A stretch of DNA of 24,827 nt, from the IMG/VR virus record IMGVR_UViG_3300025789_000812, positions 1-24,827 of that record, one strand, 5' to 3'. The translations under genes were made by a program, and so were the position numbers. The notes below the pieces were generated by a model. That model was not told the origin of the DNA. It did no database searches and was given only the letters and a program-made list of their open reading frames with translations. This DNA is from a virus. How positions within the stretch are numbered: position 1 is the stretch's first letter; each line of letters opens with the position of its first letter. Positions 14,543 through 18,352 of the stretch are shown piece after piece.

Positions 14543-14570
14543 ATTATATAGGTTTTTCTGACAATGTCAA
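14543..14570 (-). promoter_or_regulatory. Consensus sigma70-like promoter upstream of gp45
   Basis: On the minus strand, TTGACA (14570-14565) and TATAAT (14548-14543) both match consensus perfectly, with a 16-base spacer. The clamp ATG follows about 20 bases after the -10. The -35 overlaps the stop codon of the upstream dehydrogenase gene and is half of a TGACATTGTCA inverted repeat (5-base arms, one centre base). The 18-base block around the -10 is identical to that at the folE promoter. Strong early expression by unmodified host polymerase is expected. Confidence 0.78.
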
Positions 14571-15340
14571 GGATTTTTCCTAACCTTTTTGTTATATTTT
14601 ACAGCTGATTCTACCAATGTATGTGATATTTGTTGTCTATCACAATAGTGTATAAAGGCGCTTGTATCTTTAGGAAAACAAGCTCCACCAAATCCTCTGC
14701 TCATATCAGGTCCTGGTACCATCATATGGCTATTACCAATACGCTCATCGTGTGTCAATACTTGTCTAACTAGACTATAATCAGCACCGTTCTTTTCGCA
14801 CACATCGTACAATTGATTAAAGAATGCCACTTTGACACTTAGGAAACAATTGGTAGCATATTTGATTGTACTAGCTTCGGTAATACTAGTATTAAAAATA
14901 ATACGTAGTTTAGTCAAAGAATCTTTAAAAAGAGCAGACCAAAATCCTTCTGGATCATCTCCGCCCATAACCATATATTCTTGATTGGCAAAATCTTCAT
15001 TAGCTGATACAGCACGTAAAAATTCTGGACTATAACAAATACTGTGTTCTGGATATTTTTGTAATATCGTTTGTAAATAGTCTGGAGGTATAGTTGATTT
15101 AATCAGCACTGGTAAGTATACCGGTACTTGATCAAGTACGTTAATTACTTGATTAATATCGCAATCGCCTAATTGATCACTAGGCGTACCTACGCAAACA
15201 ACAATACCATCTGCGTCGGCAAAGTCCATTACTTTGTAATCACCATATTTAGGATCAACAATATGAATCCTGTTTTTTTCTTGTATGGCATTGCCAACAG
15301 CCTTGCCAACAAATCCGTATCCTGCAATTATAATTTTCAT
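14567..15340 (-). CDS. UDP-glucose/GDP-mannose dehydrogenase family protein, short form
   Basis: A 257-residue NAD-dependent nucleotide-sugar dehydrogenase homologue, the family that oxidises UDP-glucose to UDP-glucuronate or GDP-mannose similarly. The Rossmann start MKIIIAGYGFVGKAVG (1-16), KSTIPP (81-86), YSPEFLRA (103-110), KYATNCFLSVKVAFFNQ (160-176, Lys160 and Asn164) and the catalytic-Cys segment GFGGACFPKD (216-225, Cys221) are all present. The chain ends about 35 residues after the catalytic Cys, so the C-terminal UDP-binding domain of the usual 390-450-residue enzyme is missing. This may be a phage-specific short form rather than decay, since the frame is clean and the core motifs are intact. 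It lies between gp43 and gp45. Confidence 0.83.
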   Translation of the reverse strand: MKIIIAGYGFVGKAVGNAIQEKNRIHIVDPKYGDYKVMDFADADGIVVCVGTPSDQLGDCDINQVINVLDQVPVYLPVLIKSTIPPDYLQTILQKYPEHSICYSPEFLRAVSANEDFANQEYMVMGGDDPEGFWSALFKDSLTKLRIIFNTSITEASTIKYATNCFLSVKVAFFNQLYDVCEKNGADYSLVRQVLTHDERIGNSHMMVPGPDMSRGFGGACFPKDTSAFIHYCDRQQISHTLVESAVKYNKKVRKNP

Positions 15341-15341
15341 A

Positions 15342-18011
15342 TTAAAACTCGAATAAACTGTTAAATGTATTTTTTTCTTCTGTGCTAGTAATATTCCATT
15401 CTAGTACACCTATTAAGTTGTCTAGCTTTTTATCAATGATAGTAGCTTCCATTTCAGCATGATCAAAAGGTAAATCTTTGAACCACTGCGGTAACCTCAG
15501 TTCGTCTACAGGGTAAGCGACTGATGTATAGCCTAACGGATTAGGCTTGAGTTTACAAACAATAACTTTAGCACCATCTGTAATACTCATAGAATATTTG
15601 TCATTGTACATACGTTTTAGCGTGTTCCAATTGATACTAGCACGAACATGTCCTGGCATATTAGTCTTACCGGCTTTGGCTTCTTTGCCTTGATACTCGG
15701 TAATCTTGTTAGCACGTTTAGGAGATCCTTTTTCCCAACCTGGTCGAGCTTTAAATTTGATACGGAATGCGCTGATATGATCCAATACATCCTGTTCATC
15801 TTTACCCATTAGAACCATTTCAAGAACTTCACTTAAAAAGTCTTGAATAAATTCTGGAGTATCACTACGCTTCAAGTCCAAGCCCATAGCTTTAATCTTA
15901 CCAGCTTTACCATCTATGTCAGTACGTTTGCCTTCTTTGTCATAGTAAAGAACAGCATAGCGTTTCTTAGTAATAAACAAACTTTTAGATCCGACAATTT
16001 CACGACCTGCTTTAATAACTTCTCCACGGGTCTTTGGCACATGAAACGTATCCAACATAAACTGTGGGAATGTTTGATTTACTTCTTCTCCGATGGTATC
16101 ATACAGTTGAATTACCGTTTCTTTCGTCCAGGGAATTCGTCCGGCTTCAATGTCCTTCTGTAAAGTGCGATAAGCACTAAAATAACAACTATCAGTATCA
16201 CCATAAATTACCGCCTTTCCTACGTGATCATACTCTCCGGTAATGATCTCATTTACTTTACTCGCCATATGTTTTGCGATTTGGCGACCGACCAGCGTTG
16301 TTGATTGTCCGATTCGTTTATCAAAGAATCTACAACCGCTATTAAGAATAGCACCGTACAAGCTATTAAGATTAATCTTCTTAACAAGTTGTCGTTTATC
16401 CCAATACTCTTCTTCCACTTTATTCCCAGCATTTATAGCCTCCTTTAACTTGGCCTGCATCTCTTTACGTTCAGCATACCAGCGTTTTAGTAGCCCTGGA
16501 ATAATACCTTCCTTTTCATGGGTGAAGATTGTCCCGTTACTTGAAAGCATCCAAGGCTGATTGCTTTCAAATATTAATCTATATACTTCGGCGGCACTTA
16601 GTACATCGCTAGATCCATCTTCCCAGTCGATAGTAATGTCTGTGCCAATCTCTTGTGCCATCACAGCTTCGTATTCGTCAGTACCAAATTTACCTTCCCA
16701 AGCAGCCGCAAATGATTTACCTTTGGCAATTTGTAGCTCAATGTATTCTTCTGTCTTAGTTTGACGTAACTGTCCAATAATAGTTTCCGGACCCATGTTT
16801 AACGCACGAATCGCAGATGGATATAGTGAGTTAATATCTAATGATCCTACCCAGTCTTGAATACCTGTTTTAGGAAATGCTACATACGCACCTGCCGCAC
16901 CTTCGTTGTCTTCACGTTCGCTCATCTTAGTACGATTAGGAACTTGGAAACCTCTACGATGTGCTTCGTTAATAATAGCCTGTTCAGTCACAGCTACAGC
17001 ACCCATTGTAGTTTGTAGTAGTACTGTATTTTCATGTGCCAACGTGTTAGTTAGATCCATGAATTTTAACTTCTTGTCTAAGTCGTCAAGCAGTTTACAG
17101 TCATTAATGTTATATTCAACAAACGTTTTAAAGTCATTGTTGTACAACTGATCCAATGTACCTTCGTATTGTGTTTTACGTTTGCCCAATTCATATTCAG
17201 CAATAGCATCTAGTCTATAACTATGACGTTCTTCATATGTGTACTTACGATATAGTTCGAGATAGTCGAGGTGAACACGACCAATATAATCATAAGTTGT
17301 ACTAGTACGACCATACTTTTCATATTCACGTTTTTTAGGAAATTGATTAAACAAACAAAAGCGTCTAGTATCTTCTTTTGATAACGCTTTTGTTACTCTA
17401 TTTGTAGTGTATGGAATATCAAAGCCTTCCGAGTTCCAACCACTTAATATATCTGCGTCTTTAATCAAGTCAAGGAATGTGTCCAACAAGTCTGCTTCGT
17501 TGTCGAACAGCATAGTATTAGGAAAATCTTTAACCATTTCCTTAGCATCTTCCATACTAAGCTTCTTAGGAGGAATAGCTAAACAAACCATTGTTTCTAA
17601 CCATTGTAAGTAGACAGCAATCGCAGTAATTGGCATAAATGCGTCGTCTGGACTAGCATAGCCACGCTCTGGATCGAAGTCTACCTCAATATCGAAAAAT
17701 GCTACATTTAGTTTAGGAGCATCTTGATTTAAGTAGTGTTCGCTTAGTGTTACAAAGATTGGATTAATATCCGATTCGTATAAAGTCTTGCCACTGTTAA
17801 TGGCTTGTTCTTTGCGTAGTTCTTTTGTGTTTTTACAAACGATACGAGTGAGTGGATCACCGTAAATTGATTGAAATTTCCCTCTGGGATCTTTCACATA
17901 AAATGTATGACGTACAGGAATATCTCTAAATTCCCTGTCGCCTTTTTTATTGCGTTCAACAACTCGAACGATATCGTTCTCGCGGTCAAACCATGCGTCT
18001 ACATAAGACAT
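15342..18011 (-). CDS. gp43: DNA polymerase, family B (T4 gp43)
   Basis: The replicative polymerase with 3'-5' proofreading, 889 residues (T4 gp43: 898). Exonuclease motifs: FFDIEVDF (residues 105-112), ILSGWNSEGFDIPY (188-201) and EYNINDCKLL (299-308). Polymerase motifs: A at SLDINSLYPSA (390-400), B at KKINLNSLYGA (544-554), C at IYGDTDSCYF (602-611), followed by the thumb region with KRY near 690. The ending NTFNSLFEF resembles the C-terminal clamp-binding peptide of T4-like polymerases. The ATG at 18011 has GGAG ten bases upstream, immediately after a hairpin resembling the T4 gp43 autogenous operator. It is complete and without intein or split. Confidence 0.97.
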   Translation of the reverse strand: MSYVDAWFDRENDIVRVVERNKKGDREFRDIPVRHTFYVKDPRGKFQSIYGDPLTRIVCKNTKELRKEQAINSGKTLYESDINPIFVTLSEHYLNQDAPKLNVAFFDIEVDFDPERGYASPDDAFMPITAIAVYLQWLETMVCLAIPPKKLSMEDAKEMVKDFPNTMLFDNEADLLDTFLDLIKDADILSGWNSEGFDIPYTTNRVTKALSKEDTRRFCLFNQFPKKREYEKYGRTSTTYDYIGRVHLDYLELYRKYTYEERHSYRLDAIAEYELGKRKTQYEGTLDQLYNNDFKTFVEYNINDCKLLDDLDKKLKFMDLTNTLAHENTVLLQTTMGAVAVTEQAIINEAHRRGFQVPNRTKMSEREDNEGAAGAYVAFPKTGIQDWVGSLDINSLYPSAIRALNMGPETIIGQLRQTKTEEYIELQIAKGKSFAAAWEGKFGTDEYEAVMAQEIGTDITIDWEDGSSDVLSAAEVYRLIFESNQPWMLSSNGTIFTHEKEGIIPGLLKRWYAERKEMQAKLKEAINAGNKVEEEYWDKRQLVKKINLNSLYGAILNSGCRFFDKRIGQSTTLVGRQIAKHMASKVNEIITGEYDHVGKAVIYGDTDSCYFSAYRTLQKDIEAGRIPWTKETVIQLYDTIGEEVNQTFPQFMLDTFHVPKTRGEVIKAGREIVGSKSLFITKKRYAVLYYDKEGKRTDIDGKAGKIKAMGLDLKRSDTPEFIQDFLSEVLEMVLMGKDEQDVLDHISAFRIKFKARPGWEKGSPKRANKITEYQGKEAKAGKTNMPGHVRASINWNTLKRMYNDKYSMSITDGAKVIVCKLKPNPLGYTSVAYPVDELRLPQWFKDLPFDHAEMEATIIDKKLDNLIGVLEWNITSTEEKNTFNSLFEF

Positions 18012-18021
18012 AAATTTTCTT

Positions 18022-18045
18022 CTCCGATGTCACTTAAGGCTGACA
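18022..18045 (-). promoter_or_regulatory. Candidate gp43 translational operator: hairpin plus Shine-Dalgarno
   Basis: In the gp43 leader, the minus strand reads TGTCA (18045-18041), loop GCCTTAAG (18040-18033), TGACA (18032-18028), then TC and GGAG (18025-18022). The perfect 5-bp stem with an 8-base loop directly before the ribosome binding site has the same geometry as the T4 gene 43 operator, to which gp43 binds to repress its own translation. The loop sequence differs from T4. Function is inferred from position and shape. Confidence 0.6.
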
Positions 18046-18094
18046 AATACCTTCATGCGAATTATGGCTCGCTAACCTTTCCTAGCAATATTTA

Positions 18095-18352
18095 TTAGAT
18101 ACGTTTTGTGATATCTAAAATTGCTTCAATTTCTTCCCAATCAGCATTATAATTTTGCCAATCGCCTTTATGTGCGATCTTAATTGCTTTGGTAATAACG
18201 CTTGGTTTGATTTGTAATTCTTCGGCAACTGCCTTGACAGTTTCCTTTAAGCCTTCTTGTAAGTCTTCAACTTCACGTAGGACTGTTGAGCCTTCACTAA
18301 TTAAACGCTCTAGTTTTGCTTTTTCTTCTGCACCGTATGAACGACCGCCCAT
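18095..18352 (-). CDS. DsbA-like small DNA-binding/transcription regulator
   Basis: An 85-residue, mostly helical protein: a start MGGRSYGAEEKAKLERLISE, a helix with LREVEDLQEGLKETVKAVAE, then ELQIKPSVITKAIKIAHKG, which looks like a helix-turn-helix-type end, and an acidic tail (NADWEEIEAILDI). The length and layout resemble the T4 double-stranded DNA-binding protein DsbA (89 residues), which assists late transcription. The layout match is from memory, not alignment, and the T4 name is therefore tentative. AGGAG precedes the ATG. It has its own sigma70-like promoter and sits directly upstream of gp43, with which it probably shares a transcript. Confidence 0.6.
   Translation of the reverse strand: MGGRSYGAEEKAKLERLISEGSTVLREVEDLQEGLKETVKAVAEELQIKPSVITKAIKIAHKGDWQNYNADWEEIEAILDITKRI

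Follow-up and report, generated by a model that had tools for sequence, protein, structure and literature searches.

A conserved pseudoknot element and putative operator in the DNA polymerase leader of uncultured phages

The window (the whole stretch of DNA analysed, 24,827 nt of IMG/VR virus record IMGVR_UViG_3300025789_000812) carries on its minus strand gp43, which encodes a family B DNA polymerase. Read on that strand, the gp43 leader is GGTATT TGTCA GCCTTAAG TGACA TC GGAG AAGAAAATTT ATG. The genes and features of the locus are as follows.

14567-15340, minus strand: gene for a UDP-glucose/GDP-mannose dehydrogenase domain protein, directly downstream of gp43
15342..18011, minus strand: gp43, family B DNA polymerase, 889 aa (PHROG 262, E 5e-197; Pfam DNA_pol_B)
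18022..18025, minus strand: gp43 Shine-Dalgarno (SD) GGAG, read from the sequence and kept in relatives
18028-18045, minus strand: hairpin with a 5-bp stem and an 8-nt loop, 2 nt from GGAG, read from the leader sequence
18028..18051, minus strand: unit 2, predicted H-type pseudoknot adjoining the SD, from comparison of relatives; S1a GGT 18051-18049, L1 ATT 18048-18046, S2a TGTCA 18045-18041, S1b GCC 18040-18038, L3 TTAAG 18037-18033, S2b TGACA 18032-18028
18057..18077, minus strand: unit 1, predicted upstream pseudoknot on the plan of unit 2, from comparison of relatives; GGT 18077-18075, TA, GCGA 18072-18069, GCC 18068-18066, ATAAT, TCGC 18060-18057
~18080-18096, minus strand: TAATAAATA, upstream of unit 1
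18095..18352, minus strand: small gene upstream of the gp43 leader, DsbA-like transcription regulator (PHROG 639; Pfam PF11126 just under the cut-off)

TATAAT-like letters occur in this upstream position in the relatives L004, L066 and L104; these and TAATAAATA could be promoters, in which case the mRNA would begin with the element.

An earlier note on this DNA had singled out the hairpin TGTCA/TGACA, with its 8-base loop two bases before GGAG, as a candidate operator of gp43. The hairpin is present as claimed, at 18045-18028 on the minus strand. Its 5-bp/8-nt shape alone is weak evidence, with a perfect hairpin of these dimensions found by chance in 3.6% of the window's 40-nt stretches. The minimum-energy fold of the gp43 leader did not contain the hairpin, and its energy was no better than that of shuffles (z -0.41). 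Such a fold cannot show a pseudoknot, because a nested fold cannot hold both helices. Judged from the aligned leaders, it is conservation, not folding energy, that shows the hairpin to be more than chance. Indeed, it is conserved in related gp43 leaders with compensatory stem changes (TGTCA/TGACA, TGCAA/TTGCA, TGAGA/TCTCA).

Related loci were collected by an IMG/VR protein search with the polymerase, yielding 80 loci at 88-100% identity; a pattern scan extended the loci to ~70% polymerase identity, and alignments of diverged polymerases used as queries reached 41-88%. Comparison supports the view that the leader hairpin is half of an H-type pseudoknot, and that this element is doubled in the window. 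In both units a GGY triplet lies 2-3 nt ahead of the stem and can pair with GCC, the first three letters of the loop. The unit plan is thus GGY, 2-3 nt, stem, GCC, NNAA(A/G/U), stem, corresponding to a 3-bp helix S1, a helix S2 of 3-6 bp among relatives, zero nt between the helices and an A-rich 5-nt loop. The window loops are GCCATAAT and GCCTTAAG, those of relatives GCCATAAA and GCCNNAA(A/G/T). Relatives at 88-100% identity carry the upstream hairpin as GCGG GCCATAAA CCGC, GCTG/CAGC or GTCG/CGAC, with a loop similar to that of the SD-side hairpin.

Both helices were assessed by covariation. Unit 1 has five stem pairs changed on both sides in alignment A1, for which covariation was 0.336 against 0.115 when shuffled and 0.02-0.07 when the structure was slid. 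As A1 includes loci picked by motif, the invariant unit 2 GGT:GCC helix seen there is not evidence, and polymerase-selected sets were therefore used. For S2 in 56 polymerase-selected units, 5/5 pairs changed on both sides, with covariation of 0.424 versus 0.158 shuffled; over both helices, this gapless set had two-sided changes in 6/8 pairs, one being a replacement of G-C by A-U in S1. In alignment A4 the rows had to pair, making its 100% pairing circular but not its covariation. S1 was examined separately in hairpins picked by S2, a C at loop position 2 and AA in the loop, ignoring the upstream letters: it was fully paired in 175 of the 179 chosen hairpins, compared with a mean of 22 (maximum 37) after shuffling the upstream letters. 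The S1 partners change together, GCC occurring with GGY, GCU with AGY (14/14) and ACC with GGU; unit 1 of L109, for example, has AGT paired with GCT. At least three changes on the polymerase tree are required for the GCC/GCU switch.

Of 238 polymerase-selected loci, 161 have a unit whose end is no more than 40 nt from the gp43 start, as opposed to 0.3% of shuffled leaders; chance-level matches among the 238 (e.g. L256, L326) were excluded as elements. Almost all loci above 70% polymerase identity have the unit; at 60-70% its occurrence is patchy, and below ~60% it was not found. Above ~70% identity the element is mostly doubled, being tandem in the window and its close relatives, and distant relatives have another hairpin in place of the upstream unit. 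This replacement is observed ~30-70 nt before gp43 in the L212-L369 leaders as a conserved hairpin type, CGNNCAC..GNNCATG. In one subclade (e.g. L347, L356, L362) the 3' strand of the stem lies inside the SD itself (CCG/CGGAG, CCA/TGGAG). The element type tracks the polymerase tree, requiring 37 changes versus 107 when shuffled. Cultured phages yielded no close relative at the DNA level; their related polymerases are all below 60% identity, and no unit was seen in the leaders of ten such phages read by eye (Phosso, Atu_ph07, 121Q, RaK2, CBB and others). In some lineages the element has been lost, or separated from gp43 by an antisense gene, and it is therefore dispensable there.

The covariance model R1 gave one strong match per contig, at gp43, in 16 contigs of 24-238 kb, these being contigs already known to hold the element before gp43. 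Two weak second R1 matches in large contigs proved on inspection to be stretches without a recognisable unit; the third stretch inspected is the displaced element of L244. Of the units counted over the first 1.8 Mb of loci, 312 immediately precede the polymerase and 32 lie elsewhere, the latter comprising displaced elements and chance-like matches (~14 expected, from one Markov draw). When a 22-nt unit, in the form typical of one subclade, was scanned blind to the polymerase, all 120 matches were either directly before gp43 (96) or one gene ahead of it (24). In bacterial genome contigs the tandem pattern had 15 matches, none near gp43 and approximately the chance expectation. Both helices, their position and the restriction to gp43 are supported by this comparison.

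The genes found between element and gp43 encode a tryptophan halogenase, a putative 2OG-Fe(II) oxygenase, small Cys-rich proteins and proteins without a Pfam match, and the displaced state requires 13 changes on the tree. The stop codon of the sense insert touches or overlaps the gp43 start in 15 of the 16 loci checked, as expected if translational coupling keeps gp43 under the operator; gene neighbours with stop-start overlap are common in phages anyway. The halogenase lies between unit and gp43 in L404 (1033-2532; Pfam E 2e-91), L438, L477, L496 and L502. The putative oxygenase, of ~200 aa, occupies this place in L218 (898-1500), L219, L228, L229, L280 and L281, and in this group too the stop touches or overlaps the gp43 start. 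Cys-rich frames of 46-63 aa are present in L096, L123, L249, L283, L327, L328 and L330, most overlapping the gp43 start by ATGA. In L042 (2229-2972, minus strand), L035 and L076, operator and gp43 are separated by an antisense gene, perhaps a mobile or homing endonuclease, that matches DUF723 and, weakly, a treble clef; gp43 has a new, different leader there. In L364, ~840 nt before gp43, the frame following the unit starts MSYVDAI like gp43, then breaks off, ending 590 nt ahead of the polymerase restart; this is possibly an insertion just inside gp43.

We propose, from sequence comparison, that the leader element is a new pseudoknot operator through which gp43 is controlled at translation, most likely by its own product, a reading we hold to be rather likely. 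The element is probably a switch limiting the phage's polymerase output, since hundreds of related phages keep the structure there and, as far as the searches went, nowhere else. The operator would comprise small H-type pseudoknots in the gp43 leader, a tandem pair in the window and its close relatives. We infer that in each unit the 3-bp GGY-GCC helix would stack on the 3-6 bp helix, with the A-rich 5-nt loop crossing the short helix, and that the element would act at translation with gp43 as ligand. A bound repressor would hold the SD-side unit such that the 30S subunit could not start, and may have a second binding site in the upstream unit. This repressor would most likely be polymerase not engaged on DNA, matching synthesis to need. 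Control at translation initiation fits because the unit is at the SD, merges with it in one subclade, and inserts are tightly coupled to gp43. The earlier suggestion of an operator at the gp43 leader is borne out to this extent: the SD is adjoined by an RNA structure that is conserved and shows compensatory changes, and a translational operator is its best reading. Autogenous repression in turn is favoured because gp43 is the sole constant partner and the T4 and RB69 gp43 proteins are autogenous repressors of their own translation (PMC3014915, PMC535899). Counted against it are that some T4-related polymerases do not autoregulate (PMC3014915), that the present polymerase is far from T4 gp43, that the unit was not found below ~60% identity and that it is dispensable in some lineages.

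It is less likely, though the strongest of the alternatives, that the ligand of such an operator is another phage or host protein, such as a single-stranded DNA-binding protein, the upstream DsbA-like protein or an unknown repressor. T4 gp32 does use a pseudoknot in its own leader (PMC535899), and the DsbA-like gene is directly upstream. However, a regulator other than gp43 should also have targets at its own gene or at further genes, and the element is found only at gp43 in contigs of up to 238 kb. As for RegA, it was not found in 11 relatives' contigs (possibly incomplete) or three cultured jumbo phages, with T4 and RB49 as positive controls. The units might also need no ligand, the self-folding pseudoknots setting a low translation rate or shielding the 5' end of the mRNA. 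Self-stable pseudoknots typically have A-rich loops, and the unit adjoins or merges with the SD; we nevertheless regard such an attenuator as improbable, because the conservation of the loop GCC and AA, beyond the needs of pairing, and the frequent doubling of the element suggest ligand recognition.

Riboswitches built on small H-type pseudoknots are known (preQ1-I, SAM-II), as are riboswitches in tandem, and the units could be two aptamers for a small molecule, for example a nucleotide. A sensor of nucleotides should occur at genes of nucleotide synthesis as well, whereas there is one copy per contig, at gp43 only; Rfam 15 gave no match to the element, even at E 5, and we consider such a riboswitch very unlikely. 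Least credible of all is that the operator is a plain 5-bp hairpin, inherited from that of T4 gp43 or equivalent to it. The T4 operator (AGCCT AATAACTC GGGCT; in RB69, AGAC AATAACTC GTCT) has equal stem and loop lengths, UAA in the loop and a position near the SD, but here the GGY:GCC helix covaries, the stem ranges over 3-6 bp and nearer cultured phages are without the element.

The proposed pseudoknot operator shares with the T4/RB69 gene 43 operator the gene, the place before the ribosome-binding site and, as put forward here, autogenous control. The T4 geometry claimed in the earlier note stands for the window as a stem of ~5 bp and a loop of 8 nt shortly before the ribosome-binding site of gp43. 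It fails as the key to the element, which unlike the T4 operator is a predicted H-type pseudoknot with a conserved GGY:GCC helix, of variable stem length and doubled in the window. The core is -UAAC- in T4/RB69 and -UAAA- in RB49; the window shares UAA, at another loop position. Nor does co-evolution of polymerase and operator account for the differing loop as had been supposed: across the clade it is the stem letters that vary, the loop letters GCC..AA being conserved. The shape shared with T4 is probably coincidence, as the window polymerase is only ~26% identical to T4 gp43, nearer cultured phages are without the element, and no evidence for a pseudoknot was reported for the T4 gene 43 operator (PMC3014915, 2010). 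The first two of these points likewise give no indication of descent from the T4 operator, and no continuity towards T4 through intermediate relatives was found below ~60% identity or in cultured jumbo phages.

Another phage replication gene with an H-type pseudoknot in its leader is T4 gene 32, whose operator may be the sole viral example in translational autoregulation (PMC3014915, 2010). That operator precedes the gene of a single-stranded DNA-binding protein, in contrast to the family B polymerase and lack of a second copy elsewhere seen here. The gene 32 pseudoknot is single, at the 5' end, and followed by a long unstructured UUAAA-repeat stretch that is covered cooperatively (PMC535899), whereas here the unit abuts the gp43 SD, is often doubled and has a first helix of 3 bp. 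These differences aside, the element would be a pseudoknot operator of a phage replication gene, a kind already known, in a gp43 form that appears new. In rpsO/S15-type ribosomal-protein operators a pseudoknot at the ribosome-binding site likewise serves autogenous translational control, with gene, sequence and dimensions setting them apart. A library of open-access papers yielded no description of such a gp43 pseudoknot element, though one may exist elsewhere.

In T4-type phages, autogenous control by the replicative polymerase has been worked out in detail. Our confidence is evenly balanced on the broader claim that tandem H-type pseudoknots bound by a family B polymerase form a new RNA family, which would control the polymerase autogenously in a large uncultured phage clade, and that passenger genes unrelated to one another (tryptophan halogenase, 2OG oxygenase, small Cys-rich proteins) have repeatedly settled between operator and polymerase, where they would come under polymerase-responsive control. 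If true, a pseudoknot operator on a polymerase so distant from that of T4 would mean that the autogenous habit is wider, or arose more than once. The clade would then offer many natural operator-polymerase pairs for learning how a DNA polymerase reads RNA, and the unrelated genes inserted time and again between the two would serve as a natural test of translational coupling.
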